25,587 bases of DNA from a virus (IMGVR_UViG_3300009164_004932:1-25587), one strand, 5' to 3'. Counted from the stretch's first letter, positions 1 to 22,449 are shown. Made by a program: numbers and translations. Notes: a model not told the origin generated them from the sequence alone.

Positions 1-654
1 ACTAGGATCAGCATGAAAAAGTTTATCAACAATATATTCTTCCAAATAATATTCACCTGTTTGTTCACGTACCTTAAGCCATTCAGGATCACTTTCTGGA
101 TCAATTAGAATATCATTAACTTCCGACCACCATTTATTATAAAAGTTACTATCTTTCCGTGTAATCATAAAACCGGTATCAAAAGGATTAGTCCATCCTT
201 CTTCTAGTGTACGCTGTAGTCTTGTACTGTAATCATCATATTGTCCACAAACAACTTCACCACAATTTACTAATTCTTCAGGTAAAGGTTGTATCAGATT
301 CATATCCAAATCGATCTTAATAATTACATCAACATCTAATCGATCTTCCATTAACTTGCCAACATATGGAATATTTAAAAACCCTGAAGTAAAAGTTTCT
401 ATAATTGGATGATATTCTTCAATGTATGTAACATTCAATGCAGAAAGTTTATCTTGTGTATCTTTACTGATGGTATTGTGAGTAGGACATAATACATAAA
501 TGGGTATGTCTTTTAACCAACCACCATTTTTTCTCCAATTTTGAAAACAAATAATAGCTTCTGATTCATACAGTCTTTCAAACTGCACGATATTCATATC
601 ATTATTTAAATTTTTTCGGTCACCTTCAATGGCTGCAATCAAAGCGTATTTCAT
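1..654 (-). CDS. GT-A type glycosyltransferase, C-terminus outside window
   Basis: The frame is open from an ATG at 654 to base 1 (218 codons, no stop), so the gene is cut by the window edge. The protein begins MKYALIAAIEGDRKNL. Around residues 111-124 it has IKIDLDMNLIQPLP, in which D-L-D fits the metal/nucleotide-sugar binding DxD motif of GT-A glycosyltransferases. It is followed by an acceptor-side stretch (FDTGFMITRKDSNFYNKWW, near residue 160) that resembles small phage and bacterial GT-A proteins. The likely role is transfer of a sugar from a nucleotide-sugar donor in the host cytoplasm; the acceptor is unknown. It starts 18 bases after the stop of the preceding radical SAM gene, with a weak AGAAAG ribosome site, and so appears to be the next gene of the same transcript. 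The family is inferred from motif and length, not from a search. Confidence 0.72.
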   Translation of the reverse strand, partial: MKYALIAAIEGDRKNLNNDMNIVQFERLYESEAIICFQNWRKNGGWLKDIPIYVLCPTHNTISKDTQDKLSALNVTYIEEYHPIIETFTSGFLNIPYVGKLMEDRLDVDVIIKIDLDMNLIQPLPEELVNCGEVVCGQYDDYSTRLQRTLEEGWTNPFDTGFMITRKDSNFYNKWWSEVNDILIDPESDPEWLKVREQTGEYYLEEYIVDKLFHADPS

Positions 655-672
655 AATTAACTTTCTAAAATA

Positions 673-1584
673 TTATATTATGTATCTCAAATCTTTTTTA
701 TTACATAAGTCTATAACGGCTCTATCGCAATGTTTACATACATCATATTGCATGTTTAATATTTTATTGTAATCGCCATCCCATGGTTTACCTTTACTTG
801 CCTCTAAAAAAAGATAACATGGGTATATTTTTCCATCAATATCAACTTGTTGACTTTTGTTTTCCCAACTCATGCAATAGGCTTTACCTTTAACTGGACT
901 AGCATACTTGGCTCTAGCAAATTTATCCATATATTCATAATCAGCTATTTTTTTAGAATTGGGATGTAATTTATCTAACCGACTTGTATCCACATAATTT
1001 GATTTATCTCTTAATAAAAATGTTTCGGTCCAATACACATTACTAAATTCATTAACCATATTTTTAAATGCCGCACTATCAAAATCAACATCATTATAAT
1101 CAAAACGAATACATTGAGCATAGTCATTTTTATTTACACCACGAAATGATCTTGCATTATCGAGTATTCGTTTTAACTTAGTATTAGTCCTATACACCTC
1201 ATGTAACTCTTGTGTGCTACCACAAATACTAAAATAAACACGATCATCAGAATTCATATAGGTAGATAATTCTTTCCACCAATTTGGTTTATGAGTATCT
1301 CCATTGGTACATATTTCTATTTTAACATTACGACTTTTAATATATTGTACTAATCCAAAAAAATCTTTATATAAAGTAGGTTCACTTATCGTACCCACAA
1401 GTCTTACCCATTCTAAATCTGGAAAAGTTTCAAGTTGTTCAATAACTTCTTGTAGTGGTCTTACTTTATTTTCTGGATAGTGTTCTGTAAATGTAGTATA
1501 GTTGCGATAACAAAGTTGGCATTGAGCATTACATAAAGTTGTAAGCTCTAATTCTATATCGATAACTTTAGGTAGATTTAACAT
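673..1584 (-). CDS. Radical SAM protein with Twitch/SPASM-like C-terminus, paralogue 1 of 3
   Basis: A 303-residue radical SAM protein. The [4Fe-4S]/SAM-binding motif CxxxCxxC is C18-NAQ-C22-QL-C25, placed right after the first beta strand (IDIELELTTLC). The C-terminus has C237-x13-G-x4-C256, the CX(9-15)GX4C signature of Twitch/SPASM domains, then C283-x2-C286-x7-C294; these could hold one auxiliary cluster. It is clearly paralogous to the proteins at 2465-3379 and 3376-4290: all three share the P-L-Q-E/I-D-Q-L region, a G-x-x-SEPT-x-YK motif where many radical SAM enzymes have GGEP, and CGSTQELHE-x-YR near residue 120. Such enzymes generate a 5'-deoxyadenosyl radical and often modify peptides. 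The substrate is unknown. Its ATG lies inside the end of the upstream gene (7-base overlap), implying coupled translation. Confidence 0.88.
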   Translation of the reverse strand: MLNLPKVIDIELELTTLCNAQCQLCYRNYTTFTEHYPENKVRPLQEVIEQLETFPDLEWVRLVGTISEPTLYKDFFGLVQYIKSRNVKIEICTNGDTHKPNWWKELSTYMNSDDRVYFSICGSTQELHEVYRTNTKLKRILDNARSFRGVNKNDYAQCIRFDYNDVDFDSAAFKNMVNEFSNVYWTETFLLRDKSNYVDTSRLDKLHPNSKKIADYEYMDKFARAKYASPVKGKAYCMSWENKSQQVDIDGKIYPCYLFLEASKGKPWDGDYNKILNMQYDVCKHCDRAVIDLCNKKDLRYII

Positions 1585-2471
1585 TTATATTTTTTATAAT
1601 GTAACATAGGCCTACAGGCGCACCTATCTTTGTTGGGGCAAATTAAAAACTTGGTGTAGTCTTCCGTTTTGCTGGTCAAACCAATCTTTTCATCCGTACA
1701 TTGATTTGCAATATTACCTGCAACATCAATTTTATAAGTTAATGGTTGGCATTTATATCCATAATAACTAATGTTGTTTATGAGTATATCGTTTTCAGTT
1801 ACATACTCGACACCAGTATCCGTAACATGTTCAATTTTGGTACCAATGTTAGTTAGATATTTGTCAAAAGTTTCATAGAAACCATCTTCAACAATTCCAT
1901 CCCAAAATTCATTGTTGTTGGTTAGATTCGTGCAAAAATTTATGTTGTTATCTTCCATACCTTTTATGAAATCTAACATCTGTTGGTAGTATTTTTGTTT
2001 AGGATATAAAATTACCTCGACAAGTACCTTTGCGTGTTTGAGTTGTTCGTTTAACTTGATTATCTTATTCAATAATTTTTTACTATATTCGGCATGATAA
2101 CTTATATGGATTTCTATATTAGGTTTGTCGTATTGTAAAAAATAATCTAAATCTTTAGCAAAATTAGTAATCAAACTTATGTGTTTACAATTATCAATTT
2201 TCTGTAACTCATCTATAACATAAGGCAATTCTGGATGTAATGTGGGTTCACCACCTAAAATTTCAATTGTAAAATTAAAATCTAATTTCTTTAAACGATG
2301 CAAAACAAATTTGTATGCACTATGCGATAAACCTTGGCGATACAAATCATGATCCATCAGATTTTTGGCACAGCAATAAGTACATTTCCATTGGCAATAG
2401 TCTATGATAGACCAATAAAATGTTACCATTTCACCAAGTTTACCAGCTTCAATAATATTTTTATTTAACAT
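1578..2471 (-). CDS. Radical SAM protein with C-terminal cysteine cluster
   Basis: A 297-residue radical SAM protein, not one of the three close paralogues beside it. The SAM-cluster motif is C26-QWK-C30-TY-C33, followed by another Cys. The classical GGEPTLHPE motif (SAM amino-group contact) follows near residue 73. The C-terminus carries C-x10-G-x5-C (CQPLTYKIDVAGNIANQC), close to the CX(9-15)GX4C Twitch/SPASM pattern, then a CPNKDRCAC group and a final Cys as last residue. This suggests at least one auxiliary iron-sulfur cluster. It starts with ATG overlapping the upstream stop by 7 bases and ends inside the next gene. It sits between two members of the paralogue family, so the trio is interrupted rather than contiguous. 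Substrate unknown. Confidence 0.86.
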   Translation of the reverse strand: MLNKNIIEAGKLGEMVTFYWSIIDYCQWKCTYCCAKNLMDHDLYRQGLSHSAYKFVLHRLKKLDFNFTIEILGGEPTLHPELPYVIDELQKIDNCKHISLITNFAKDLDYFLQYDKPNIEIHISYHAEYSKKLLNKIIKLNEQLKHAKVLVEVILYPKQKYYQQMLDFIKGMEDNNINFCTNLTNNNEFWDGIVEDGFYETFDKYLTNIGTKIEHVTDTGVEYVTENDILINNISYYGYKCQPLTYKIDVAGNIANQCTDEKIGLTSKTEDYTKFLICPNKDRCACRPMLHYKKYKC

Positions 2472-3379
2472 ACAAAATCTAATCCCATTTTATCAATAAA
2501 GGTTCTTGTTCTCTTTTCACATAGAAAACAATCGGGATAGTTGAATGACAATATATCCGAATAATCAAATTCTTCATTTTGAAAATAGTCTTGTTCATTC
2601 TCCGCATGAGTGTAACAAGCACTTACTTGCCCCCATTGGTTAATGTATACTTTCTTTTGTTGCAAACTTCGACATTGTATTTCATAATTTTTACCATCAT
2701 TAGGCTTTGGTCTATTATCAAATAATTTTTTAATTGTAAGGTCTCTAACTTTTATAGGTTTGACACCAATTTCAACTTCTTTATTATAAACATTAACTCT
2801 GCGTACACCTTCTGTTTCAACTTTAAGTACATTACTGAATTGGTCAAATATGTTTTTCATACCAATACTTTCTCTATCTTCAGCATTATATTCAAATCGA
2901 ATGTGTTGTATCCAATCATTACCTAAATTGTTTTTGCGAAATGCGGCTGCATGATTTAAAATTTCTTGCAAATTGGAACCAACACGATACTTTTCGTGTA
3001 ACTCTTGTGTACTGCCACAAATAGTGAAAGCACACATACATTTCTTTGGAACTATACTGCCTAATTTTTCCCACCACTCCACATCTCGGGTATTTCCATT
3101 AGTAAAAATTTCATAGTAAATATCACGACTATTCAAATACTCTATAAATTTAATAAAATCTTTGTACATTGTAGGTTCTGAAACCGCACCTGCAATGAAG
3201 AATCTTTCGAGTCCGGTATATTGATCAAGTTGTTTAATAATATCATCAATACTACGAACATTTTTTTCTACCAAATGGTTGGCATGTTGGTAGTTACGAG
3301 TACATAATGGGCAAGAGAGATTACAGACTCCTGTTAAGTCCATTTCAATTTCTTGTATCTCTGATTTTTTAACAATCAT
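2465..3379 (-). CDS. Radical SAM protein with Twitch/SPASM-like C-terminus, paralogue 2 of 3
   Basis: A 304-residue radical SAM protein with C19-NLS-C23-PL-C26 after the strand EIEMDLTGVC. I place the start at the ATG at 3379, which overlaps the upstream stop as ATGA, rather than the in-frame GTG at 3433. The shorter form lines up with the starts of its two paralogues, while the extra 18 residues would be read through the upstream coding end. GAVSEPTMYKDF and CGSTQELHEKYRVGS are almost identical to the neighbour at 3376-4290. The C-terminus has C-x13-G-x4-C (CRSLQQKKVYINQWGQVSAC), then CFLC and a terminal Cys, again a Twitch/SPASM-like cluster. Its adjacency to paralogue 3 suggests tandem duplication. 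The enzyme type is secure; the substrate is unknown. Confidence 0.88.
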   Translation of the reverse strand: MIVKKSEIQEIEMDLTGVCNLSCPLCTRNYQHANHLVEKNVRSIDDIIKQLDQYTGLERFFIAGAVSEPTMYKDFIKFIEYLNSRDIYYEIFTNGNTRDVEWWEKLGSIVPKKCMCAFTICGSTQELHEKYRVGSNLQEILNHAAAFRKNNLGNDWIQHIRFEYNAEDRESIGMKNIFDQFSNVLKVETEGVRRVNVYNKEVEIGVKPIKVRDLTIKKLFDNRPKPNDGKNYEIQCRSLQQKKVYINQWGQVSACYTHAENEQDYFQNEEFDYSDILSFNYPDCFLCEKRTRTFIDKMGLDFVC

Positions 3380-4290
3380 CCCATTCGTTCCATACCATTG
3401 CGTTCTAACATAGTTTTGGTAAGACTTTCGCACTCATAACAAAATCTATTTTTAAATTCGTGTATCTCACTATAATCAGTATGATCGAAAGGAGTTCCTT
3501 TATACATTCTATAAAGGAAACACGGATGAATATTACCAAAATTATCAATACTTAAAAAACGCAATTCAAAACTTTTACATTTCATCTCACATTTAACACC
3601 ATCATCATATCTTTTCAATGAAGCATTTCTAATGATATTATATTTTCCACTTAATTTTGCAGGCATTTTAATATCAGTTTCACTCTTAATGATATTAAAT
3701 CTTTCTTGGTATGGTGCAGTTAAACAATAATAGATAGTGTTGAATTCTGCTTTGATTTTAGCCATTTCTTCAGATTCAAGATCATCTTCATTGTATTCAA
3801 ATTTAATTAATTGTAACCAATCATTTTTGGCACCTGAAGCTCTATAAGCACGAGCATGCCTTAATACTTCTTCTAAACTTGAACCAACACGATACTTTTC
3901 ATGTAACTCTTGAGTACTACCGCAAACAGTAAACCAAACTTTATCTGTTGGCCTTAAAATGGTACCCAACTCTGTCCACCAAGATTCTTTGTGAGTATTG
4001 GCATTGGTGTATATTTCTATTTCACAATTGCGTGAAACTAAGTATCGCATTAATGGTAGAAATTCTTTATACATCGTAGGTTCTGAAACCGCACCACTTA
4101 CGCAAACATATTGTAGATTTGGAAAAGTATCCAATTGATCTATCCATTCTTGCAATGGCCTAATATTTTTTACATTAAGATGTTTGCCGTTTTCGTAAGA
4201 ACGTGTGCAGAGTGGACAATCGAGATTACATGTTCCCGTCAGTTCCAATTCCACTTCTCTAATTTGTTCTACTGATAAACCTTTTTTCAT
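3376..4290 (-). CDS. Radical SAM protein with Twitch/SPASM-like C-terminus, paralogue 3 of 3
   Basis: A 304-residue radical SAM protein. The SAM-cluster motif is C21-NLD-C25-PL-C28. SGAVSEPTMYKEF occupies the place of the usual GGEP region, and VCGSTQELHEKYRVGSS follows. The C-terminal region contains C-x13-G-x4-C (CKSFELRFLSIDNFGNIHPC) and a CYEC pair, the same spacing as in its two paralogues. The ATG at 4290 overlaps the upstream stop as ATGA, and its own stop overlaps the next ATG the same way: hallmarks of translational coupling. The close match to the next gene suggests a recent duplication, and conservation of all cysteines suggests both copies are active. They may act on different residues of one substrate, or as partners, but this is inference. 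Confidence 0.88.
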   Translation of the reverse strand: MKKGLSVEQIREVELELTGTCNLDCPLCTRSYENGKHLNVKNIRPLQEWIDQLDTFPNLQYVCVSGAVSEPTMYKEFLPLMRYLVSRNCEIEIYTNANTHKESWWTELGTILRPTDKVWFTVCGSTQELHEKYRVGSSLEEVLRHARAYRASGAKNDWLQLIKFEYNEDDLESEEMAKIKAEFNTIYYCLTAPYQERFNIIKSETDIKMPAKLSGKYNIIRNASLKRYDDGVKCEMKCKSFELRFLSIDNFGNIHPCFLYRMYKGTPFDHTDYSEIHEFKNRFCYECESLTKTMLERNGMERMG

Positions 4291-4898
4291 AAGTATATTA
4301 TACTATCAAAATCTTTTTCTCTGATTACTCTTTTTTTAGATTCGACAGTCATCCTTTTATATTGTGTTGACAACATCTTGTGTTTCAATTTATTACTTAG
4401 TGTTACATTATTAATACCTTCTGGATTCGAAGCGGCCACCAAATTAAAAGATATGTCAGGATATTTTTTTAAGAAATTATCCAATCTATTATAATTGTTA
4501 TTGGTAATAATTAATAGGTACTCCAAATTTAAATTGGAATCAATAATGATTTTATCATCCTCTAAATCTTCCGAACAATGATATAATATAGTTTTAAATC
4601 TAGGCAACAAATCTTTATATTTTTTAATAAACAATCCGTTTGTATTAATATTGATTTCGCAACCTTTCTTCTCCAACTCATCCAAAATATATTCAATATC
4701 TTTTCTTTTCATGGTACCAACTTCACCACCACTTAATGTTACTTTATAACCAGGTATAATTTTTTCCAATTTGAATTTAACTTCATCCATGGTCAAATCT
4801 GGCCTATTGTGAGTATCAACACAACAATATTCACAATGCCAATTGCATACCCAAGTAACAACAAGTTCTATTTCATTATCAAGAGCTAGGACAGCCAT
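4287..4898 (-). CDS. Short radical SAM protein without auxiliary-cluster domain
   Basis: A 203-residue protein with the radical SAM motif C18-NWH-C22-EY-C25 (plus C26) and TLSGGEVGTM, a GGE variant, near residue 55. It then has the NINTNGLF strand typical of the family. It stops about 100 residues short of its neighbours and has no C-terminal cysteine cluster: after the N-terminal motif only scattered Cys remain. The last third is Asn/Lys-rich and basic. It may be a minimal radical SAM enzyme of the activase-like size class, a partner subunit, or a decayed copy; the intact N-terminal motifs argue against simple decay. The ATG at 4898 lies 20 bases inside the upstream gene, and the stop forms ATGA with the next start. 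Confidence 0.8.
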   Translation of the reverse strand: MAVLALDNEIELVVTWVCNWHCEYCCVDTHNRPDLTMDEVKFKLEKIIPGYKVTLSGGEVGTMKRKDIEYILDELEKKGCEININTNGLFIKKYKDLLPRFKTILYHCSEDLEDDKIIIDSNLNLEYLLIITNNNYNRLDNFLKKYPDISFNLVAASNPEGINNVTLSNKLKHKMLSTQYKRMTVESKKRVIREKDFDSIIYL

Positions 4899-5916
4899 AC
4901 CATCCTTTTCGATAAAAATTGACAGATTTTATCTTTTCACCCATCTCAGGTTTTAACTCTATTTCTTTTATTTGTTTTTCAACACCATCACATATAAAAT
5001 AGTGTTTACAATCCAAACATTCTTTCTTTTTATAATATGTCCAATTTCGTTTGCGTTCAGCTGCACTATACATTGATTTATATACATCACTTCTATACTC
5101 TACAGGATCAATTTTACCATCATAAACGGCAATATTCCAATCATATACATCATAGATATGTTGGTAATAATTACAGACATATTGCTCATATCCTTTCATA
5201 AAACAATAAGGTGTATATCTTACATTAATAATAGGTACGAAACTTTTTAATAAATCTATAGCACTATGTACATGTGGCATTACTTTACCATAATTAATAG
5301 TGTCTTGTATTCCAGCATCGTCCCAATAATTCAAGGTTAAAAAGTTAACTTCGTATGGAGTTAATTCTTTCATCAAATCGACAAATTGAGTTGATAGATT
5401 CTTATAGTTTTTATGTGTGACGGTACAATTAATACGAACTATTATGCCTAATTCATGAGCATTGTGTATGGCTTGAACTATATTTTCAAATCCTTTTCGA
5501 TGACCAACTAATGTATTGTGACTTTCTTTATCATATCCATGTACACTAAAAAGTATTTCGTCTAATCCATGTTCTTTAGATTTAACCAAAAACTGTTTAT
5601 CTGCAAACTTATAACCATTACTTAATGTACTTATCTTCAAACCTTTACTTTTACAATAGTCTAATATATCAAACCATTGTTTATGAATACTGGATTCTCC
5701 TCCAGAAAGGTCTACTTCTTTGATACCGCAATCCACAAGGTAATCAATTCGTTCTTTAATTATATTAAATTCGGTTACATCATTTAGTTGTGTTTTGTAA
5801 TAACAAAATTCACAACGATAATTACAATGTGTACCTGTATCCAACTTGGCTCGTTGGCACAAAGGTTCATCATAATCGATTTCTAATTGATGACTTAGTT
5901 CATTATATAACTTCAT
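4879..5916 (-). CDS. Radical SAM protein with partial SPASM signature
   Basis: A 345-residue radical SAM protein from the ATG at 5916. A TTG six bases further upstream is in frame, but the ATG has AGAG about 7 bases before it and is preferred. The SAM motif is C31-NYR-C35-EF-C38, preceded by an N-terminal extension of about 25 residues containing another Cys (C20). EVDLSGGESSIH (GGE motif) and FSVHGYDKESHNTLVG (strand 4 region) match the radical SAM core, as in MoaA/PqqE-type enzymes. Near the C-terminus, CLDCKHYFIC gives C-x2-C-x5-C, the first three cysteines of the SPASM signature CX2CX5CX3C, and a last Cys lies in GWYGCPSS. The start overlaps the upstream gene by 14 bases. Substrate unknown. 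Confidence 0.86.
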   Translation of the reverse strand: MKLYNELSHQLEIDYDEPLCQRAKLDTGTHCNYRCEFCYYKTQLNDVTEFNIIKERIDYLVDCGIKEVDLSGGESSIHKQWFDILDYCKSKGLKISTLSNGYKFADKQFLVKSKEHGLDEILFSVHGYDKESHNTLVGHRKGFENIVQAIHNAHELGIIVRINCTVTHKNYKNLSTQFVDLMKELTPYEVNFLTLNYWDDAGIQDTINYGKVMPHVHSAIDLLKSFVPIINVRYTPYCFMKGYEQYVCNYYQHIYDVYDWNIAVYDGKIDPVEYRSDVYKSMYSAAERKRNWTYYKKKECLDCKHYFICDGVEKQIKEIELKPEMGEKIKSVNFYRKGWYGCPSS

Positions 5917-6739
5917 TTTCAATCTCTTTATATAATTTGTCCGTTGTTTCTTTTGAATTTAAATAATTTTTCTTGGAGATATTCAGTAACTTTAATGATG
6001 TTAAAGTATGACCAACATAACAATTCTGTTCATATGAACTGCATTTGCTAGAACATATACTTTGTGAATCGTAAAATTTATACCTTAAAGGATCCTCCAT
6101 TGCATCTTTTAAAGTACCAGAATTTAAATTTGCATAAAAAATCTTTTTAGAATTGGGTAATTCTTCTCTAGTGAATATACAAAAACTTACATCACCATTT
6201 ACAAACACTTTAGGTTCTTGGTGATATTTACATTTTACGGTTTTATCTAATTGTTTATCGTTAACATGGTTTTCATCATAATCAAAAATATAACCTTGAT
6301 CACGCCTGTGTACTTCATGTGGAATACCAGCACTACTCAATTGTTTTAGTTTACGATGAAAAATTTTAAATAAAGATTTATTAGATTCGGTAAGTTCAAT
6401 AAATTTATCTAAAGTTTCTCCATAATATGAAACATTTAATTTGATATTGTTTAGTTTTAATTCCTTTAATTTATCCATATTAATTGCCGTTGCATTGGTG
6501 AACACCAAAGATTCTTTCATATGTTCATTTGCAAAACTTAAAATCTCATAGATGTTTGGATGCATGAAAGGCTCGCCTTTGCATGGCGTGAGATTTAATT
6601 TGGTAATACCTAAATCTTTGGCTTCAAGTACCACCTTTTTAAACAGTTCTAAATTCATGTAAGTAACCGATTCCAAATCTTTTGCCTTACAGAAATAGCA
6701 TTTAAAATTGCAACCTTCAATAATCTCTATAGCTAACAT
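5903..6739 (-). CDS. Radical SAM protein with Twitch/SPASM-like C-terminus
   Basis: A 278-residue radical SAM protein. The SAM-cluster motif is C10-NFK-C14-YF-C17 immediately after the first strand (LAIEIIEGC), so there is no N-terminal extension. LTPCKGEPFMHP, with KGEP in place of GGEP, follows near residue 53, then LVFTNAT and LNVSYYG core strands. The C-terminal part has C-x11-G-x4-C (CKYHQEPKVFVNGDVSFC), an exact CX(9-15)GX4C Twitch/SPASM pattern, followed by C-x3-C-x6-C (CSSKCSSYEQNC). The ATG lies 7 bases inside the upstream glycosyltransferase-like gene, linking the sugar and radical SAM parts in one transcript. It is the first of seven consecutive radical SAM genes. Substrate unknown. 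Confidence 0.86.
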   Translation of the reverse strand: MLAIEIIEGCNFKCYFCKAKDLESVTYMNLELFKKVVLEAKDLGITKLNLTPCKGEPFMHPNIYEILSFANEHMKESLVFTNATAINMDKLKELKLNNIKLNVSYYGETLDKFIELTESNKSLFKIFHRKLKQLSSAGIPHEVHRRDQGYIFDYDENHVNDKQLDKTVKCKYHQEPKVFVNGDVSFCIFTREELPNSKKIFYANLNSGTLKDAMEDPLRYKFYDSQSICSSKCSSYEQNCYVGHTLTSLKLLNISKKNYLNSKETTDKLYKEIENEVI

Positions 6740-7623
6740 ATGACACCTTTGAGTATTTCTATAATATCATCGTTATCTTTTAAATGCAAACTATCAAAAT
6801 CATTATCAATGTCCCATTTTCGCACTCGCAATCCATGATCTTCTTCCCAATAGTCAATATTATGATATATTACTTTTTTACCATAGTGTTTACATTCAGC
6901 AATAAATCTAGGACTACAATCCCATTTGCGTGGTATAGGAGTGTAAACATAGGTATTAAATTGTTCAAAGATATTATCTACTGGCGGCATTAGAAATTCT
7001 ATACCAGATACAGATTTTTGTATAGAATTAACAATAGCAATAATTTTACCATATTTGGTATAGTCAGTAAAATCTGAAATATGCCTACAATTTTTTGTTG
7101 CGTAAAGTAATACCCGATCTTTACTATCACCAATAGGTTTTAATCTATCAAATAGTATTCTTTTTTTATAATTGATACCATTGCGTTTTACAGGTTCATA
7201 AACTCTATCATCTTGTAATATGTAAACATTATCTTTATCATTATCTTTAATTTCTTTATTACCACAAGCAAAATAGAAGATGTTATTAAACAATAGAGTG
7301 ACGGATTCCATATTCACAACACCGCCATCTGTGAATAATATATTACTACCTTTAATTAAATTAGGTCTATTATTGAATACTGTATTGTCTTTAATGTTTT
7401 GCAATTCTATATCAGTAAAATTATATTTGGATTTGATACTAAGTTCAAATGTTTCCCAATCAATATCTTCACACAATAATATACCAACTTTAAAATGATT
7501 TTTTAATATATGGTAATAATCAATCACCTCATATGTGTGGCCACAAATACCATGGTTGTTATCACTCCATGAATAACTTAACCATAAATCATATTCGGAA
7601 TTGAGTTGTACTATTTTAGACAA
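6733..7623 (-). CDS. Putative GT-B-like glycosyltransferase (uncertain)
   Basis: A 296-residue protein that I can place only loosely. Its C-terminal half has WDCSPRFIAECKHYGKKVIY followed by EDHGLRVRKWDI, which resembles the acidic E-x-x-x-G-K-x-V segment of the donor-binding half of GT-B glycosyltransferases. The N-terminal half (YDLWLSYSWSDNNHGICGHTYEVIDYYHILKN, shown in part) could be the acceptor-side Rossmann domain. No signal peptide or membrane segment is visible. The only start upstream of the conserved region is a TTG at 7623, 13 bases inside the previous gene, with GGTG about 6 bases before it. It pairs with the next gene upstream, and the two may form a complex or act in sequence. 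It could also be a sugar-related protein of another kind. Confidence 0.5.
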   Translation of the reverse strand: MSKIVQLNSEYDLWLSYSWSDNNHGICGHTYEVIDYYHILKNHFKVGILLCEDIDWETFELSIKSKYNFTDIELQNIKDNTVFNNRPNLIKGSNILFTDGGVVNMESVTLLFNNIFYFACGNKEIKDNDKDNVYILQDDRVYEPVKRNGINYKKRILFDRLKPIGDSKDRVLLYATKNCRHISDFTDYTKYGKIIAIVNSIQKSVSGIEFLMPPVDNIFEQFNTYVYTPIPRKWDCSPRFIAECKHYGKKVIYHNIDYWEEDHGLRVRKWDIDNDFDSLHLKDNDDIIEILKGVIC

Positions 7624-8399
7624 GCTTGCACCATGGCATCATTTTCAGTTATGGTATAATTTTTTAAACCATTAATTAATATATCATTATAACGCAATTC
7701 TATACTATCTTGTTCATTGAATAATTTTTCTATTGTTACCGGTTTATTATAGAAAAATGATTCGGGAATAATTCGATTATTTGTATCTTGTTGAGTATGA
7801 ACATAATGTACCGCATCTATCATGTCGAACAAATTACCAAATCCGCAATCGCTTTGTTTTAATATGATTGGCCGATTAAATTTGGTTTTCCATTTTTCCA
7901 AATTTTGGCGAATGAAATTTAAATTCAAACCACTAACAAAAACACCATAACCTTTTTGTTTTAGTGGATGAAATAAATCAAAATTGAGTTTTAAAAGGCA
8001 TTCAATATCAAAAGGTTGGTAATGATATGATCCATAATAAGTTACAGATCGATCATTCTTATAACGAAAAACATCATGAGTTTCATTACTGAAACAATGC
8101 ACTTCATTAGTTAAGAATTCTTTACATTCATTAAAACTTCTAATATCTAGAATTAATGTTTTATCTAGTTTTTCTTTATATAAATCAACTAAACTAATGG
8201 GTACAATATTATCAAAAGAAGTATTATATTTGTCAGAGAATATTTTAAGTATTAACTTTAAATCTTTATCTGTAATTCCGACAATGTAAAATTTAAAGTC
8301 TTTATATTGCCGTAAAAATTTGAAGTATTCAAAACAATAAAATAAAGTTCCGTTTATCTTATGGTTGGGTTTAAACTTATATACAACTCCATATTTCAT
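7611..8399 (-). CDS. Putative GT-B-like glycosyltransferase (uncertain)
   Basis: A 262-residue protein starting at an ATG one base after the upstream stop. It begins MKYGVVYKFKPNHKINGTLF, with an alternating Rossmann-like pattern in the first 90 residues (FYIVGITDKDL, TLILDIRSF). Near residue 210 it has NNRIIPESFFYNKPVTIE, where E-x(4)-N-K-P-V resembles the E-x-x-x-x-G-K-P-V donor-binding segment of GT4-type enzymes. The C-terminus is NGLKNYTITENDAM. The likely role is cytoplasmic sugar transfer, perhaps to the tail protein encoded two genes upstream or to a host or phage glycan. It overlaps the following GT-like gene by 13 bases. No metal-binding DxD motif is visible, as expected for GT-B. 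Family-level evidence is modest. Confidence 0.5.
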   Translation of the reverse strand: MKYGVVYKFKPNHKINGTLFYCFEYFKFLRQYKDFKFYIVGITDKDLKLILKIFSDKYNTSFDNIVPISLVDLYKEKLDKTLILDIRSFNECKEFLTNEVHCFSNETHDVFRYKNDRSVTYYGSYHYQPFDIECLLKLNFDLFHPLKQKGYGVFVSGLNLNFIRQNLEKWKTKFNRPIILKQSDCGFGNLFDMIDAVHYVHTQQDTNNRIIPESFFYNKPVTIEKLFNEQDSIELRYNDILINGLKNYTITENDAMVQACLK

Positions 8400-8400
8400 T

Positions 8401-9018
8401 TCAATAATTTAAATAAAAATTTTCTAAAAATTTATTTGTAATTTCGGTAATATCTTCTACTGCTGACGAAGATAATACATCGTTTTTAAATTTAGAAAAC
8501 TTTCTTTCCAAATGAGCAACTTTTTCTATTTCATCTTTATAATTTAAATAGTCTTCCAATTTAGAAATTAATTTCTCATCACCGGTTTCCAATATTTGCA
8601 AATATTTTTCTTCTCGATTTTCATTCGTAATTGCATATCCAGAATTAATCAAATCGTTATTTAAAACCATAAAACCATACAATGTTAAACCTGCAATTTT
8701 AGATAAATCGGGAGTAACTAACATTCTTACTCTTGCTAAATTATAATTTTTTGATTCTTGGAGAGGATCTTCTAATGATGTATCTTTTACTTCAATCTCA
8801 AAAGGCAGTACTTCATCAGCCATCATATTCTTAGTGATGTGTACCGTTTTATTGGCTAATAAAGCTTCTTCAATTTTTTTGTGAGAAACATAAGATAATT
8901 TTAATAATTTTTCATTATTATTTACCAAATTATCAAATGTATTTTTTGTTACATTGGTTACTTTCCAATGTGTACCACAATCAACAACCATAGCTAAATC
9001 ATAAATCATAGAACTCAT
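8401..9018 (-). CDS. Unknown protein with helical C-terminus
   Basis: I do not recognise this 205-residue protein. It starts at an ATG with a good AGAAGG ribosome site 6 bases upstream. The first 120 residues look like a mixed alpha/beta domain (YDLAMVVDCGTHWKVTNVT; ARVRMLVTPDLSKIAGLTLYGFMVLN). The last 75 are charged and probably helical or coiled-coil (ISKLEDYLNYKDEIEKV, HLERKFSKFKNDVL). It has one cysteine, no signal peptide and no membrane segment. It is encoded 16 bases after the Cys-repeat tail protein and directly before the GT-like pair. A job as a tail assembly chaperone, a virion accessory protein or a partner for modification of the tail protein would fit the position, but nothing in the sequence proves any of these. 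Confidence 0.75.
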   Translation of the reverse strand: MSSMIYDLAMVVDCGTHWKVTNVTKNTFDNLVNNNEKLLKLSYVSHKKIEEALLANKTVHITKNMMADEVLPFEIEVKDTSLEDPLQESKNYNLARVRMLVTPDLSKIAGLTLYGFMVLNNDLINSGYAITNENREEKYLQILETGDEKLISKLEDYLNYKDEIEKVAHLERKFSKFKNDVLSSSAVEDITEITNKFLENFYLNY

Positions 9019-9024
9019 TTCAAA

Positions 9025-9030
9025 CCTTCT
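9025..9030 (-). promoter_or_regulatory. Ribosome binding site for the 205-residue protein
   Basis: AGAAGG on the minus strand, 6 bases before the ATG at 9018. It decides this start over a second in-frame Met three codons later. It is one of the few strong Shine-Dalgarno sites in the island, where most starts are coupled to the preceding stop. Confidence 0.6.
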
Positions 9031-9034
9031 TTCA

Positions 9035-9745
9035 TCAAATTGGTAATTTATTATAATCTACTTTATAGTATCCGTTTTTATCGGTTAAAACAGCGTTTGA
9101 ATAAATTGTGTTTAACAAATCTTGCGCCATGACACCCACTTTGGTAATACTTTTATCCCAAATATAATTAAATGAATATAGTTTAATTCCTTTTTTAGTA
9201 TAGAGGTATTTAATATTTTCTTTTAATCTTTCATCACTATAATTACAACCGCAATTTCCGTTACAACTACAAACTAAATTACATGCACAATCGGAGTTAC
9301 AAATACAATCTTGTCGCATGGTATTATATTTTTCTAAAAGTACTGACCAATGCGTATCTTCAACCAATGTACCATCAGCATAACTATTAGGCGCTGTCGT
9401 ATTGTCAGCAGGATCCGTAAGCACAGCATAGTTGGTACCAACAGGCTCAACAACGTTGTTTACTCTTTGTACAATTGTTTCATAGTCATTGATATGTTTA
9501 TTATCAATTACAGTAACACCTGCACCGTGGTCTGCACCACTCTGATCGTTAGCGGTATATGCGGAAGCCATATCTCCAGCATTAGCAAAACTTCTATGTT
9601 GAGCATATCTTGCTAATTCAGCTCTAATAGCATTTTTTAAACCATTAATATCGGCAGCAGTAATTAAACCTCCAGCTACTGCAAAATTACCAGATAATGC
9701 GGTTGGATTATTTGTAGAACATGGTGCTCTATTGCCAGTACACAT
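9035..9745 (-). CDS. Tail-type protein with (CxCNxx)4 repeat and S74-like self-cleaving chaperone end
   Basis: A 236-residue protein. Residues 1-140 include GGLITAADINGLKNAIRAEL and a helical stretch as seen at the head of many phage tail/fibre proteins. Residues 147-168 are four perfect hexads C-x-C-N-x-x (Cys at 147/149, 153/155, 159/161, 165/167; Asn at 150, 156, 162, 168). From Ser170, S-D-E-R-L-K-E-N-I begins a domain like Peptidase_S74, the intramolecular chaperone of endosialidases and fibres. In that family the Ser (here 170) and Lys (here 175) drive self-cleavage just before the Ser. GVMAQDLL and YYKVDYNKL also fit. The domain is short and ends without the usual C-terminal helix. Cleavage would expose the Cys-rich tail as the mature C-terminus. 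Genes for two SPASM enzymes lie just upstream, making this the best candidate substrate in the window. Confidence 0.82.
   Translation of the reverse strand: MCTGNRAPCSTNNPTALSGNFAVAGGLITAADINGLKNAIRAELARYAQHRSFANAGDMASAYTANDQSGADHGAGVTVIDNKHINDYETIVQRVNNVVEPVGTNYAVLTDPADNTTAPNSYADGTLVEDTHWSVLLEKYNTMRQDCICNSDCACNLVCSCNGNCGCNYSDERLKENIKYLYTKKGIKLYSFNYIWDKSITKVGVMAQDLLNTIYSNAVLTDKNGYYKVDYNKLPI
9242..9307 (-). repeat. Four in-frame 18-base units encoding C-x-C-N-x-x
   Basis: This stretch encodes residues 147-168 of the tail-type protein. The hexads begin CICNSD, CACNLV, CSCNGN and CGCNYS; the last one runs into the S74-like motif. The Cys-x-Cys-Asn positions are invariant while the other three vary, so selection on the pattern, rather than recent DNA duplication, keeps it. 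The only other cysteines in the protein are residues 2 and 9. A six-residue period is also that of left-handed beta-helices, so cysteine ladders, metal binding or thioether bridges are all conceivable. Confidence 0.9.
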
Positions 9746-9746
9746 T

Positions 9747-10898
9747 TCAGACTTCCTTTTCCACTAATTTTATTTCTTTATTTAAGTATGATTGAACCGA
9801 TCTATCAATTTCACCAAATGCTTTAAAGAAACCACACATATTATTAACCCATCTATCCGTCCATCGGTCAAAATAATCTTCTTTTTTACTGTTGTCCAAA
9901 CTACTAACTGGACAAATCATACATGTTGTGGCCACGCATCCTTTACATATATCGGATACATCTTTAATCGGAGTCTGATATTTCTTGCTCATAGATTCTA
10001 CGCTATTTATAAAACCATCATCCATAATATTGCCACCCTTCATCAAATCTTTATTGGGTGAGTATATTGAACCGTGACATGCATAACTATTACCATCAAC
10101 ATCAATAGCATGCATATGAGCACCAGATGTACAATGAGATTTTGAATCTGAACCATTAAACCACGCACACAAATGATACCCGTGTTCTTTAAAAAACTTG
10201 ATTTCTTCAGCTGCAATTTTTATCATTTCGGATCTGAAATTTTGGATCAGTTCTTCCAAATTTTCTTTAGGTATTTCTTCAACATAATCAATTGTAGGTG
10301 CATACGAAACATTAATATTCGGTCCTATAGAATTGAGTTTGAGGTGTAACTCTTTAAAATCCAACCAAGTATTGTAAAGACCTTTCATACTCTTTAAAGG
10401 TATTGTAGATTTGAGGAATACATTAATACCTTTTCTAGCAAAGTATTCTATGTTCTCAACAACTTTATCTGAAGTTGGTTTACCCGAATGAGTGATTCTA
10501 AATTTATCACCAATTTCTTTACCATCATGTGATATTTGTACCGATAATTTACGAATATCCACTTTATCAAGAATATCATCTAGTCTTTTTCTATTGTAAC
10601 CATTTGTATAGATGTGAAAGTTAACTTTATCCAAATGTTGAAATTCCGTCATTATATCTACAATCAAATTTCCGTTCAAAGTAGGTTCACCACCCCAAAA
10701 AGTAAGATTCAACATTTCATAGTTGTCTTTAAAGAAACTACTATCTAAAAGTTCATAAACTCTTTTTTTGACAACATCAACTTTGTCATCTAGTCTTTGT
10801 GTATTAGTTTTTGCTCCTTCAAAACAATATGTGCAACCCATATTGCAAAGTGCAGTAGTTGTAATTTCTAATGTGAACTGATCATGTTTTTTGTTCAT
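9747..10898 (-). CDS. Radical SAM/SPASM protein-modifying enzyme
   Basis: A 383-residue radical SAM protein with a SPASM-type end. The SAM-cluster motif is C18-NMG-C22-TY-C25, then LTFWGGEPTLNG near residue 67 and VQISHDGK in strand 4. The C-terminal domain has C-x12-G-x4-C (CTSGAHMHAIDVDGNSYAC) followed by CKGCVATTCMIC and a final Cys in NNMCGFF, enough ligands for two auxiliary clusters. This layout is that of anaerobic sulfatase-maturating enzymes and of RiPP maturases such as those making Cys thioether or carbon-carbon crosslinks. Its stop is one base before the ATG of the Cys-repeat tail protein, so the two are made together. Its own ATG overlaps the upstream 79-residue gene as ATGA. Acting on that tail protein is the natural guess, but unproven. 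Confidence 0.9.
   Translation of the reverse strand: MNKKHDQFTLEITTTALCNMGCTYCFEGAKTNTQRLDDKVDVVKKRVYELLDSSFFKDNYEMLNLTFWGGEPTLNGNLIVDIMTEFQHLDKVNFHIYTNGYNRKRLDDILDKVDIRKLSVQISHDGKEIGDKFRITHSGKPTSDKVVENIEYFARKGINVFLKSTIPLKSMKGLYNTWLDFKELHLKLNSIGPNINVSYAPTIDYVEEIPKENLEELIQNFRSEMIKIAAEEIKFFKEHGYHLCAWFNGSDSKSHCTSGAHMHAIDVDGNSYACHGSIYSPNKDLMKGGNIMDDGFINSVESMSKKYQTPIKDVSDICKGCVATTCMICPVSSLDNSKKEDYFDRWTDRWVNNMCGFFKAFGEIDRSVQSYLNKEIKLVEKEV
9752..9758 (-). promoter_or_regulatory. Ribosome binding site for the Cys-repeat tail protein
   Basis: AAGGAAG on the minus strand, 6 bases before the ATG at 9745 and inside the last codons of the SPASM gene. It is a clearly stronger site than those of the radical SAM genes, consistent with higher output of a structural or substrate protein than of its enzymes. 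Confidence 0.65.
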
Positions 10899-11134
10899 TT
10901 AGTTTTTTCTTCCTTAGAGAACTCCATTATTTCATCGAGTATTGAAAACATCTTTTCTTCTGTAACCTTATTGGCTTCCGGTTTAACAATACCTATCATT
11001 TCTTCTGCCATTTGAAATAGTTTAACGGCTTCGGTTCTAAAGTCCTCAACATTAGTTAAATATTTTCCAGCTTCATTTAAATGAAACGCTGCACCATAAA
11101 GTGCTTTATTCATCTTCTTTATAGAATTAGCCAT
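10895..11134 (-). CDS. Small helical protein between two SPASM genes
   Basis: A 79-residue acidic-tailed protein, MANSIKKMNKALYGAAFHLN..., predicted by eye to be almost entirely helical with amphipathic stretches (FRTEAVKLFQMAEEM; EEKMFSILDEIMEF). It contains no cysteine, no Gly-Gly leader motif and no signal peptide, so it does not look like a thioether-peptide precursor. The ATG at 11134 lies 8 bases inside the upstream SPASM gene and its stop forms ATGA with the next SPASM gene, so the three are translated as a unit. It may be a small partner, for example a substrate-presenting or stability factor of the flanking enzymes, but the sequence gives no direct support for a function. Confidence 0.75.
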   Translation of the reverse strand: MANSIKKMNKALYGAAFHLNEAGKYLTNVEDFRTEAVKLFQMAEEMIGIVKPEANKVTEEKMFSILDEIMEFSKEEKTK

Positions 11135-12131
11135 CTATCAATTCTTTCATAACAGTATTTTTAAAATTTTCATTATTTCTTAATTGTTTTGTCATATCAC
11201 CAACATTCTTATACATAAATTTATATACATCACACAATTCTTTTATTGGTCCTTTATTTTTTATCTGTTCAAATAAACAACCTTTTTCACAATAATTTTT
11301 TACTTCACATGTTTGACATTCAGACATGCGCTGATATTCTGGAATCAATTCTACCATTTCTGGATTATCCTTGAATCGATTACAAGGTACAGGTTTGTTT
11401 TCACTAAACATAAAAATGTCTGTTCCTGCACCACAAAAATCTTTAACAAATCCACTAGATTCATAATTGATAAAATGTCGTAAATAAAACAATATGAAGT
11501 ACGGCATTTCTTCTTCGGGATTATTGATGTACCAGTTAAACAATTCTGTTATACCAACTTTCAATCTCTCCACACTTCTTGCATCCCAAACATGCATATC
11601 ACGAACCAAAGTAAGTTCAGGATTAACACCAAAGTGTTTCCTAATATATAGGTGGTTTTCCAAAAGGTTATAACAACCCTTGTAGATCATAGTGTGTATC
11701 TTGAAATTTGGTATTCTCTGAAACAATTCCCGTTTTTCAAAAAATCTATGTGCAGTACCTTTACCATTGGGCTGTAATCTATTTTTATCGTGCCACAAAC
11801 CATCAAAACTTAAAGATACATTTACTTTCTTTTCAATCAAATATTCCAAAATTTCTTCAGTAAGCAGTAAACCATTCGTTGGCATTCCATATTGAATATT
11901 GCCATCATTCTCAGTTTCACTAATAATGGTTCTTATTAGATCCATAAAAAGTAATGGTTCACCACCAAAGAAGTCAATTTGTATCAGTTCATCAGGAAAA
12001 GATTTTCTAACCCTACGATATTCATTTAAAAATAATTGTGGATCTATAACATCTTTAGACATTTTGTCTTGATTGCAATATGAACAATTGAGATTACATT
12101 TCTCAGATAGAAATACGGTAACTAATTTCAT
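11127..12131 (-). CDS. Radical SAM/SPASM enzyme of the anSME-like class
   Basis: A 334-residue radical SAM protein with the clearest SPASM domain of the window. The SAM-cluster motif is C12-NLN-C16-SY-C19 at the very N-terminus. QIDFFGGEPLLF follows near residue 55, and VSLSFDGLWHDKNR fits the substrate-side strand. The C-terminal half has FCGAGTDIFMFSENKPVPC, then CQTCEVKNYCEKGC, an exact CX2CX5CX3C SPASM signature, and a further Cys (KELCDVYKF). This is the cysteine set that holds two auxiliary [4Fe-4S] clusters in sulfatase-maturating and peptide-crosslinking enzymes. One deviation is that the first pair lacks the usual GX4C glycine. The start overlaps the dehydrogenase stop as ATGA. It is the first radical SAM gene of the island in order of transcription. 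Confidence 0.9.
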   Translation of the reverse strand: MKLVTVFLSEKCNLNCSYCNQDKMSKDVIDPQLFLNEYRRVRKSFPDELIQIDFFGGEPLLFMDLIRTIISETENDGNIQYGMPTNGLLLTEEILEYLIEKKVNVSLSFDGLWHDKNRLQPNGKGTAHRFFEKRELFQRIPNFKIHTMIYKGCYNLLENHLYIRKHFGVNPELTLVRDMHVWDARSVERLKVGITELFNWYINNPEEEMPYFILFYLRHFINYESSGFVKDFCGAGTDIFMFSENKPVPCNRFKDNPEMVELIPEYQRMSECQTCEVKNYCEKGCLFEQIKNKGPIKELCDVYKFMYKNVGDMTKQLRNNENFKNTVMKELIDG

Positions 12132-12859
12132 TGTCTATATTGATCATTAAGTTCTAATACGGTATTTAAAAGTTTCATATTAAATTTTTTACTTAAAGCT
12201 TGTGTATCTTTTGGTAAACATGGACCTCCAAACCCTCGTTGGCCATCAGGACCAGGCACTTCAAAATGATGTGAACCCATCCATGGTTGTTTTGAAAGTA
12301 TTGCAGTCAACTCATTATAGTTAACATCCATCTCTTTTGATATGTCATATATTGAATTCATAAAGGTAACTTTCAAAGCATAAAATGAATTCATCGTATA
12401 TTTTGCAAGACTGGCCGTTTGTATATCGGTCAAAAAAACATTATCAGTTTTAACAATAGAATATTTTTGGTAAATATCCAAAACTTCTTTTGCCTTATCA
12501 CCACCAATAATCAACATTGGAGGGTTAACAAAATCTTCATTTGAAGTTTTTCTTGATAGAAATTCAGGGTTATAAATTATATCATAACCTTCTAATTCAT
12601 GCGGCAATATTGTTGATTTTACTACTGTCAGTCCTTTATAACCAACTTTATTGATCTGATCTAATACTTCTTTTAAAATCTTGTAATTTGTATTGTCTGT
12701 CGGAGTTGGAACGCAAATGAATATTGCCTCCGAATTTGAGGAACAAACTTCTTCTAATGATATATCATTATATTCAGGATCACAAATAATTTTAGATGTG
12801 TTGGGAAAGCCATAATCAACGGCTTTCCCCACCATACCATAACCAACAATACCAATCAT
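12128..12859 (-). CDS. Short UDP-glucose/GDP-mannose dehydrogenase-family protein
   Basis: A 243-residue nucleotide-sugar dehydrogenase relative. GIVGYGMVGKAV at residues 3-14 holds the GxGxxG NAD-binding loop. FLSRKTSNEDFVNPP and KYTMNSFYALKVTFMNSIYD fit the central helical domain with its conserved Lys and Asn. GFGGPCLPKD contains the catalytic-type Cys214. Known enzymes oxidise the C6 hydroxyl of UDP-glucose or UDP/GDP-sugars to the uronate in two NAD-dependent steps, with Cys forming a thioester. Members usually exceed 380 residues. This one ends soon after the Cys motif and lacks the C-terminal domain that closes the UDP-sugar site, so it may use another partner or act on another substrate. 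No continuation exists: its stop forms ATGA with the next gene. It links the island to sugar-nucleotide supply. Confidence 0.85.
   Translation of the reverse strand: MIGIVGYGMVGKAVDYGFPNTSKIICDPEYNDISLEEVCSSNSEAIFICVPTPTDNTNYKILKEVLDQINKVGYKGLTVVKSTILPHELEGYDIIYNPEFLSRKTSNEDFVNPPMLIIGGDKAKEVLDIYQKYSIVKTDNVFLTDIQTASLAKYTMNSFYALKVTFMNSIYDISKEMDVNYNELTAILSKQPWMGSHHFEVPGPDGQRGFGGPCLPKDTQALSKKFNMKLLNTVLELNDQYRQ
12803..12829 (-). other. Perfect 9-bp GC-rich hairpin just after the tail-fibre gene
   Basis: GGGAAAGCC and GGCTTTCCC form a perfect 9-bp inverted repeat around a 9-base loop, starting 36 bases downstream of the tail-fibre stop and inside the first codons of the dehydrogenase gene. No T-run follows on the minus strand, so it is not a standard intrinsic terminator. 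It could mark a transcript end, slow polymerase or ribosomes, or protect the fibre mRNA 3' end, at the border between the virion genes and the accessory island. It may also be a chance product of coding constraint. Confidence 0.35.
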
Positions 12860-12865
12860 ATCACA

Positions 12866-15800
12866 TTATAGGATAACCGCTTCGATTAATCCTTCTTCTT
12901 CAGTTGTTTTCGATTTGAGTGCAATTGCAAAATACTTATCTTCAGTATATTTAGCTACTCCAGGAATATCACTTGGTCCTAATGGTTGACCTTTTTTAAC
13001 TTTACCAATTACACGAACTGGTACTCGTCCTTTCAAAGCAACCACGGTGCCATTTTTCAAATCACTATTCATCAAATAAGCTGGATAGTTAGAAACAACA
13101 CCTAAAGGTCTGAAGTGTGAATCAGTAGCCGCAGTAACTTCCTTTTTACCACCTACAGCCAATACAGTACCTTCTGAATATTCATCATCAGCAATATATT
13201 TCTCGGCCAAGTCAGCGTATCGAGCTGAACTTGCGGTACCAGATAAGTTGCCAATAAAGGTAGTTGCGTACATGTTACCTGTACCAGCAACATCACCTAC
13301 GATTTTAAGTGCGGGTGTTGATTGACCTGTACCACCAGATAAAAACTCACCCATGACATAGTTTTTAAATGTTCCACTTAACTGTTGATAACCTGTTGCA
13401 CCAGCAATACTACCACCACTTAGATTAGTTGCGGTACCAGCAGTTGTTGCGGATGAAGCAGTTGTTGCACTACCAGCAGTTGTTGCTGAAGCAGCAGTAC
13501 CTGAAATATTAATTCCATATGTACCACTCAAACGAGCTGATGGTACTGTACCAGATGTTAGATTGGAGGCATTGAGATTTGAAAGGTCAACACCACTTAA
13601 AGAAGCATCAACATAAGCCTTCGTAGCGGCATGTAAAGCTGATGTTGGAGCACCAGCAAGTACTAGAGTACCCGTCATTGTACCACCTGCAAGTGGTAGA
13701 TAACCTGCAAGTTGTGAGGTAACTTCAGCAGCACCAATAATATTTTGGTAGTCAGCTCCGTTATTAGTGAATGTCCACTTGTCAGTTGTTTCATTCCAAA
13801 GAACATAAACGTTTGCAGAAGTGCCTCGATCAATTTCAATACCACCATTTTCAACTGGTGATGAGCTTTGACCAATGTCAGCATTTAATGTAATAACGGC
13901 ATCAGCAACTTTTAAATCATTTGCGTAGATACTTGCACCAGCAGCATTTAATGTTCCAGTAATTGTTAAATCACCAGAAATTGTACCGCCTGAGGTACTT
14001 AATTTTGTATTAGCTGCACCAAAAGCCGCATTAGCATATGTACCAGCACTAACAGCATTTGTGTTAGCAGTATTAGCCCGTGCAAAAGCTCCGTTAGCAT
14101 ATGATGAGGCTGAAGTAGCATTAGTATTTGCAGTTACGGCTTTTTGATCTGCCAAAGCAGCATCAACAAGTGCGGTGTTTGCAGTTGAGTAAGCTGCGTT
14201 AGCGTGAGTGCCGGTTGTACCAGCAAATGCAGCATTAGCAGTAACAAAAGAAGCATTTGCATAAGCGCCAGCAGTTTGACCACCAGCAACATATGCGGTG
14301 TTAGCAGCATCATATGCAAGTTGCGCTAAATTGTTTGCAGTATTGGCTCTTGCAAATGCACCATTAGCATATGAAGAACCGGAGTTAGCAACATGACTTG
14401 GAGTGTTTGCGGTAACAAAAGCGGCATTAGCATGAATGTATGCCGAGTTAGCATAAATGCCTGTTGTGTTTTGACTTACATATGCCGAATTAGCATGGCG
14501 GTAAGCGGCATTTGCATACCCACCAGCGATCACACCTCCAGCTTCGTATGCAAACTTAACAGCACTTGCGGATGCAACCAAAGTGTCGCTGGTTGAATTA
14601 ACTCCTGTGTATATGTCTGCACCATCTAAAATCTTATAAGTGCTTGTCCAAGTGTTTCCTGTTGAAATTTCCCAACGATCATTGGTTTCATTCCATTTAA
14701 TGATGGCATCATTACCGCTTACTCGATCATTAACAATTAATCCGTCTTTATTTGTACCTGTATTTGCATTTAATACAAGTCTATCCACCTCAAAGTTTAA
14801 ATTACCTGTTTGTGTAAACGAACCAGAAACAATTAAGTTACCCTCAATTACCACACCTTGCAAAGTTGTAATACCGCTTTCGACAATAATAGCATCTCGA
14901 CTTGCACCTGTGTTAACTTTAAGTGTAGCGTTTTGGAGATTCAAATTACTAGTTACATTTGCAGTAGTAATTAGTGCAGATACAATATTGGTCGAAAGTA
15001 ATGTTGAATTATTTAATGTTGCAGAATTAGAAGTTAAAGTTACAACATTACCATTGATGATTGTACCATTAGTGATTCTACTTGTGGTTATATTACCTGT
15101 AGTTATTGTTGCAGTTGTTATAACAGCATTAGCAATTGCAGTATTTGTTAAAGTACTGTTAATTAATGTTGAAGTGTTTAGTGTTGCAACATTAGAAGTT
15201 AGAGTTACAACATTACCATTAATGATTGTACCATTGGTTGCAGTAAGATTACCAATAGTAGCAGTATTGATTGTAGCCACATTAGATGTGAGATTTACAA
15301 TGTTTGCAGTATTATTAGCAACAAAATCCCTTATCGTACCAGTATTTGCATATAAAGTATTTGATGATAGGTAATACACATTACCAGTTGTAGCTCTTAA
15401 AATATCCGCACCAATAGAACCTACATCTGATAGATTTTCAATGAAAGCTTCTAAAGCATAAATTGTTGTTACATTAGCTCTTGTTAAATATGCATTTGCA
15501 AGGTACGCATCTTTTACATATACTGTACCACTATTAGCTGAAAGTACTTTACCAGTACCACTCAAAGTTACAACGCCAGCAACGGCAACATTGTTACCAA
15601 TTGTCGCATTAGTATTAACTGTCGCATAATTTACATAAACATTTTGTACGATATTTAAATCTTTATTAATAATTGCACTATTCGAAACACTCAAGCTTGT
15701 ACCACGACCAGCAACAGTCAAAGTATTACCAATTGAAACATTACCTACATTTGAACCTACAGTACCAACTGTAAGATTATTTGCAACTGAAAGGTCGTTA

Positions 15801-16000: not shown

Positions 16001-16009
16001 TTTAGAACT

Positions 16010-16237: not shown

Positions 16238-16238
16238 A

Positions 16239-22443: not shown

Positions 22444-22449
22444 TCCTCT
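22444..22449 (-). promoter_or_regulatory. Ribosome binding site for the giant structural protein
   Basis: AGAGGA on the minus strand, 4 bases before the ATG at 22439 and overlapping the gp8 stop codon. It is one of the strongest Shine-Dalgarno sites in the window and fixes the start of the 2066-residue protein. Confidence 0.65.

Follow-up and report, generated by a model that had tools for sequence, protein, structure and literature searches.

Why should a tailed phage keep nine radical S-adenosylmethionine (rSAM) enzyme genes within one stretch of DNA? The question is raised by IMGVR_UViG_3300009164_004932, a 25,587-base IMG/VR virus record that we analyzed over its full length (the window). 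Nine open reading frames (ORFs) with a CxxxCxxC motif, all on the minus strand, occupy its positions 673-12131 with ends that abut or overlap, exactly as a first-pass annotation of this DNA had described. What that annotation overlooked is the likely substrate, a tail protein bearing a dense cysteine array. We consider it likely that this array would be cross-linked at the tail-fiber tip by one of the nine enzymes, rSAM-B, probably together with a second, rSAM-A, and a 79-residue helper protein. The genes themselves, the fold class of the enzymes, the linkage of arrays to enzymes across numerous unrelated phages, the position of the arrays at the C-terminus and the tracking of enzyme clade by array type are established.

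A Cysteine Array Beside Two SPASM Enzymes

Directly downstream of the rSAM-B gene lies the gene of the proposed substrate, a 236-residue protein (9035..9745, minus strand) that matches a virion structural protein family (phrog_6121, E 1.9e-14) and the S74 chaperone profile (PF13884, E 7.1e-7). Its S74 domain (residues 170-219; 9089..9238, minus strand) begins with SDERLK; the profile score (29.9 bits, cut-off 22) and the SDxRxK start seen in the alignment place the protein within the S74 group. Immediately ahead of SDERLK stands the array, CICNSDCACNLVCSCNGNCGCN (residues 147-168; 9242..9307, minus strand), as read from the sequence. As is established for S74 proteins, self-cleavage occurs before the serine of SDERLK; thus, the mature protein would have the array as its C-terminus. 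Relatives that have no S74 domain (L135, L137, L139, L169, and L225) stop at the equivalent point, with CNY plus one or two residues, and in type-2 relatives the protein terminates shortly past SDxRLK. The array is predicted to be disordered (predicted local distance difference test, pLDDT, below 50 for residues 149-166), flanked by a helical stalk and the well-folded S74 domain. Foldseek returned nothing meaningful for the array protein, and the array of the window did not match TIGR04114.

Two side observations concern this protein. In L147 (11159-12056) and L148 (11065-12050) S74 is split: the array protein keeps SDxRLK and a few residues, while the rest of the S74-like sequence is encoded downstream by an ORF of its own, which may serve as a trans-acting chaperone. 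The N-termini of many array proteins also carry a second Cys/His motif, CxxxxCxxHxxxxxxCxxHRxxC, which is partly lost in the window protein.

Among the nine enzymes, a full or near-complete SPASM-like cysteine set is found only in rSAM-B (9747..10898, minus strand; 383 residues), the proposed maturase, and rSAM-A (11127..12131, minus strand; 334 residues); both carry the SPASM auxiliary-cluster cysteines, and a cysteine-rich gene of substrate type adjoins the enzyme, as in known maturase systems. In rSAM-B the CxxxCxxC motif and C256, C274, C318, C321, C326, C329, and C355 are invariant in 25 aligned sequences. Its structure model (pLDDT 87) finds CteB as the best Foldseek match (5wgg, E 6.7e-16, template modeling score 0.68), followed by anSME (4k36, E 1e-14) and ChlB. 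CteB is the thioether-forming maturase of the SCIFF peptide, and is also the closest solved sequence to rSAM-A (E 8e-22), in which the C-terminal set comprises C233, C250, CQTCEVKNYCEKGC, and C300. PapB and the CXXX-repeat maturases head the NCBIfam ranking for rSAM-B, far under their curated cut-offs (for TIGR04115, 72 against 350 bits). Between the two enzyme genes is encoded a helical 79-residue protein without cysteine (10895..11134, minus strand; homologue CP220 gp020), of which we found 15 sequences, all at the equivalent place.

Linkage of Arrays and Radical SAM Enzymes

A DNA scan for the S74-type array alone returned 15 viral contigs, and an independent rSAM-B scan detected the enzyme in 15/15. 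An earlier scan with a loose pattern had hit mostly wrong-frame repetitive DNA, and in-frame classes alone were retained. Starting from the enzyme, we found an array in the neighborhood of 33 among 35 distinct rSAM-B loci. The gene next to rSAM-B encodes at least six cysteines within 24 residues in 27/34 cases, as recounted from the list (the automated count was 23/34, its rSAM filter having dropped some arrays); under that automated filter the figure for far genes is 1/360. As a control, 120 loci (1045 genes) were selected solely by a DNA pattern for YSDERLKxNI. Four array genes and nine rSAM genes occurred in them, all within L236, L268, L291, and L306, a full coincidence with a chance of 1/C(120,4), about 1e-7. 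Of the 123 S74 proteins sampled there, not one had its own array at the cleavage point. Array type also follows the enzyme phylogeny: on the rSAM-B tree a single change accounts for the two spacings, CxCNxx and CNYxC (support 98/94), and 0/500 shuffles were as low. This is what one would expect if enzyme and substrate evolved in step.

The pairing extends to other kinds of array. Class 2 consists of 122-residue proteins ending NCNCNCACNCNCACNCNC, encoded just after a tail-fiber gene, with an rSAM one to three genes downstream in all 12 loci that offer at least 1.5 kb of sequence; by tblastn the class-2 array protein matched no deposited phage, probably owing to the low-complexity filter and to a lack of relatives. 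Class 3 (proteins of ~70 residues ending CxCxCxCxC) was met by chance in the control and then put to a held-out test, a scan for HIxYDDYxT only. It comprises 27 loci, three of which (L236, L268, and L291) had supplied the lead; the 26 readable to the end all have five or six cysteines, and an rSAM lies within 1 kb downstream in 25/25 testable loci (L361 and L357 lack enough DNA). The array of Achromobacter phages JWF and 2-1 (NCNCDCNCNCSC in the former) continues into the first cysteine of a Hint self-cleaving domain, and in L151 the neighbor of rSAM-B bears an array and a Hint-like domain; an rSAM accompanies such Hint-type arrays in 4/4 contigs, including JWF, which had supplied the lead. 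Erwinia phage EarlPhillipIV encodes gp162, with a 20-cysteine C-terminal repeat, and the rSAMs gp158 and gp157 ~1.6 kb further on; gp162 just reaches TIGR04114, an rSAM target repeat, the sole array protein to do so, and gp157 is a maturase of the CXXX-repeat type. Arrays nearly always stand at the mature protein end, since a stop codon or S74 or Hint self-cleavage falls there. In L145, JWF, and class 2 the arrays persist although the loci have no more than two rSAMs and lack recognized sugar genes; hence a single SPASM enzyme with a single array protein is the smallest unit.

Some further occurrences were noted. Direct fusion of array and Hint domain in tail-fiber proteins was seen in L227 (Achromobacter phage JWF; 4760-6211), L228, L230-L233, and L151 (11773-12453); by analogy with Hedgehog proteins, Hint cleavage could also attach something at the array end. 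L213 (2703-6207) encodes two distinct C-terminal cysteine-array proteins, each with its own rSAM downstream. In L174, L182, L186, L187, L189, and L193 remoter rSAM relatives adjoin long cysteine-rich proteins with CxxxC or CxxC repeats, that of L193 having 81 cysteines in 494 residues.

Candidate Chemistry and Competing Explanations

In the mechanism that we propose, the tail protein would trimerize with the help of S74, and during infection rSAM-B and rSAM-A would introduce cross-links within the array. S74 would then release itself by cleavage immediately behind the array, which would remain as the exposed fiber tip. The likeliest chemistry would be the formation of thioethers from cysteine sulfur to neighboring residues, as by CteB, PapB, and QhpD-type SPASM enzymes, and a disordered Cys/Asn-rich tail would thereby become a stable, compact tip. 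Read from sequence, the array is a plausible substrate and its place on the virion tip a plausible one; whether modification precedes cleavage, what the 79-residue protein does and which bond is formed are matters of inference. On balance, it seems probable that many unrelated tailed phages covalently cross-link C-terminal cysteine arrays, often freed by S74 or Hint, through dedicated rSAMs, as a general form of virion maturation that emerged, or was spread, on several occasions.

Several observations weigh against cross-linking of the array by these enzymes. The enzymes reached the curated cut-off for none of the named maturase families, the best being PapB with 92 and 102 bits against 340, and neither Pfam nor NCBIfam recognized a leader-binding (RRE) domain. 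Many maturases have no detectable RRE domain. Two rSAM-B loci, L154 and L159, have no array in the available DNA, and three genes and ~2.2 kb separate rSAM-B from the array gene of the Campylobacter phages, gp140, whose array lies in the interior of the protein. Co-inheritance of neighboring genes could likewise yield the single split on the tree, and genetic linkage would not in itself be proof of a substrate.

What else could the arrays be? Their CxC periodicity and extreme cysteine density would suit a tip that binds metal or iron-sulfur clusters, or is knotted by disulfides, comparable to the HxH sites of T4 gp37, with the rSAMs acting elsewhere or aiding metal loading, and the array is indeed predicted to be disordered without ligand. 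Yet such a tip would need no radical enzyme, and in four array families SPASM rSAMs accompany the arrays almost without exception; we judge this explanation unlikely. It is a very improbable alternative that rSAM-B, like anSME, oxidizes the cysteines of the array to formylglycine; amines of the host surface could then react with the resulting row of aldehydes. The fold of anSME is among the nearest to rSAM-B and JWF gp030 carries a sulfatase maturase annotation, but the aligned arrays are devoid of the CxPxR sulfatase motif and the nearest fold and profiles are those of peptide cross-linking enzymes.

A different possibility is that all the rSAMs are auxiliary metabolic genes, boosting host metabolism at low oxygen or serving sugar synthesis, and that the tail protein is a mere neighbor. 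This is the published view for Campylobacter phages CP220 and CPt10 (PMC2853527), and genes for UDP-glucose dehydrogenase, epimerase, PIG-L, DegT, and amidinotransferase are found nearby; it may apply to the other seven rSAMs. For the whole set we hold it decidedly unlikely, given that the array link persists in the L145, JWF, and class-2 loci described above, where one or two rSAMs stand apart from any recognized sugar gene. Cross-linking of the array by rSAM-B remains our preferred explanation.

The Rest of the Locus and Known Systems

All nine enzymes match PF04055 in a Pfam profile search, eight of them above the curated cut-off (the exception, 1578-2471, scores 25.8 against 29.5 bits), and all match PHROG rSAM families. 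Eight have C-terminal cysteines, as had been claimed, the exception being the 203-residue product of 4287-4898. The Twitch/SPASM signatures proposed for several of them were borne out in part: CX(9-15)GX4C occurs additionally in 673-1584, 2465-3433, 3376-4290, and 5903-6739, and several enzymes are of the peptide- or protein-modifying SPASM type, the full SPASM-like set being restricted as described above. The rSAM genes are not contiguous, five non-rSAM genes being interspersed (6733-9745 and 10895-11134). For a single transcript, gene packing is compatible and no terminator-like site was found within 673-12131, transcription being predicted from sequence only. A baseplate wedge gp8 gene (22448-23788) agrees with the T4-like assignment. 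An assembly chimera is ruled out, because contig L129 is collinear with the window over 6738-20898 (~14 kb) at 89% identity, across both rSAM and tail genes. L001 matches the left end of the window at 87-91% identity, the cluster extends beyond that edge in L001 and L002, and the block order is kept across viral contigs, beside tail genes.

The conserved module opens with a short UDP-glucose dehydrogenase-like protein of 243 residues (12128..12859, minus strand; PF00984, E 1.2e-16; phrog_9148), encoded at the same position in CP220 (gp019) and many other loci. These proteins are only ~250 residues long and do not have the usual C-terminal domain, though their position is kept in distant phages. 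Past the array gene, on the same strand, follow a 205-residue protein present there in most loci (8401..9018; phrog_25260), a 262-residue protein that is possibly part of a GT-B glycosyltransferase (7611..8399; weak match to WlaC, 6eji, E 0.011; no Pfam match), and a conserved 296-residue protein (6733..7623; phrog_24441; without a match in Pfam or PDB); for none of the three did profile searches in these databases yield a firm result. A scan of bacterial genomes for rSAM-B identified no cellular source, because the sole close relative lies, with identical gene order, in a contig of a Bdellovibrionales metagenome-assembled genome. This contig (L225; MEQL01000015) has the order rSAM-A, small protein, rSAM-B, array, at 46% identity; it probably derives from a phage and was binned with the bacterium, which hints at the host.

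The other seven rSAMs, all on the minus strand, differ in character: 5903..6739 (278 residues; PF04055, 47.9 bits), 4879..5922 (347 residues; phrog_27238, E 1e-95; 46% identical to CP220 gp163, which lies apart in its genome), 4287..4898 (an rSAM core only, matching PF04055), 3376..4290 (304 residues; 31% identical to gp083 of the CP220 five-rSAM cluster), 2465..3433 (322 residues from GTG; PF04055), 1578..2471 (297 residues; L001 has a 316-residue protein instead), and 673..1584 (303 residues; PF04055). Around them lie genes of sugar type (amidinotransferase-like, epimerase, PIG-L, DegT, and possible glycosyltransferases), among them an incomplete glycosyltransferase-like gene at the window edge (1..654, minus strand; phrog_23758), past which L001 continues into amidinotransferase, epimerase, and PIG-L genes. 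Their rSAM content differs among contigs, as in CP220. These seven constitute a separate, swappable cassette. That it has a role in glycans or metabolites is roughly an even call, the making or attachment of an unusual glycan being the more likely. One more rSAM, which has a B12-binding domain, stands beside a 2-oxoglutarate (2OG)-Fe(II) oxygenase in the same cassette of L002 (12695-14206), a phage of 278 kb. The proposal that all nine enzymes serve one multi-step modification is thus weakened: two SPASM rSAMs pair with the array protein, the rest belong to a variable sugar-gene cassette, and in CP220 the SPASM/array unit is at loci apart from the five-gene cassette.

The known targets of radical-SAM cross-linking are small secreted peptides and a few enzymes. 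If our model is correct, tail fibers would be a new class of substrate for it, and a hidden chemical layer would exist at the part of the virion that contacts the host; the retention of many iron-sulfur enzymes by CP220-like phages, open since 2010, would also be explained. Cultured phages with such arrays (Achromobacter JWF, Firehammerviruses, and Erwinia Derbicusvirus) make the idea directly testable. In the open-access papers searched, we found no prior report pairing rSAMs with phage tail proteins, and rSAM maturation of phage tail tips appears not to have been described. The action of rSAMs on cysteine-rich peptides is known; from sequence comparison, what seems new is their systematic pairing with the mature ends of phage tail proteins.

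The first-pass annotation knew of no phage system with so many rSAMs, a claim of uniqueness that fails because CP220 and CPt10 already have 11 and 12, respectively (Timms 2010; PMC2853527). These phages, which belong to Firehammervirus, carry an interchangeable five-rSAM cluster with an amidinotransferase; for their rSAMs a role in host metabolism was proposed, the link between array and enzyme not being drawn (PMC2853527). Like the window, they are T4-like, with many rSAMs, sugar-transferase and amidinotransferase genes, and a cysteine-array protein, gp140, near rSAM-B; unlike it, their module is split over three places. The window rSAM-B is ~29% identical to CP220 gp136, and rSAM-A 25% identical to gp023. 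Window and Firehammerviruses thus have in common a module in which rSAM-A, rSAM-B, the small protein, the UDP-glucose dehydrogenase, and the cysteine-array protein occur in one genome, the array spacings being different. A 21-bp tandem repeat (L005:1152-2756) underlies the gp140 array, whose length could therefore vary between isolates. CteB (SCIFF), PapB (ranthipeptide), and the CXXX-repeat maturases (TIGR04115, target TIGR04114) resemble rSAM-B in fold and auxiliary-cluster cysteines. SPASM systems for ribosomally synthesized and post-translationally modified peptides share with the window a cysteine-rich ribosomal substrate encoded beside the enzyme and a C-terminal modified region, but there the substrate is a small secreted peptide, and here a phage tail protein with its own self-cleaving domain. 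Other tail proteins with S74, the endosialidase chaperone, likewise have a C-terminal chaperone that starts at SDxRLK and is self-cleaved off; in the array protein, by contrast, a cysteine array stands exactly at the cleavage point. Finally, the fiber tip of T4 gp37, with its HxH iron sites, may resemble the array in its short, periodic, metal-ligand-like residues on a trimeric fiber tip, yet it uses histidine rather than cysteine, and the array is linked to radical enzymes.

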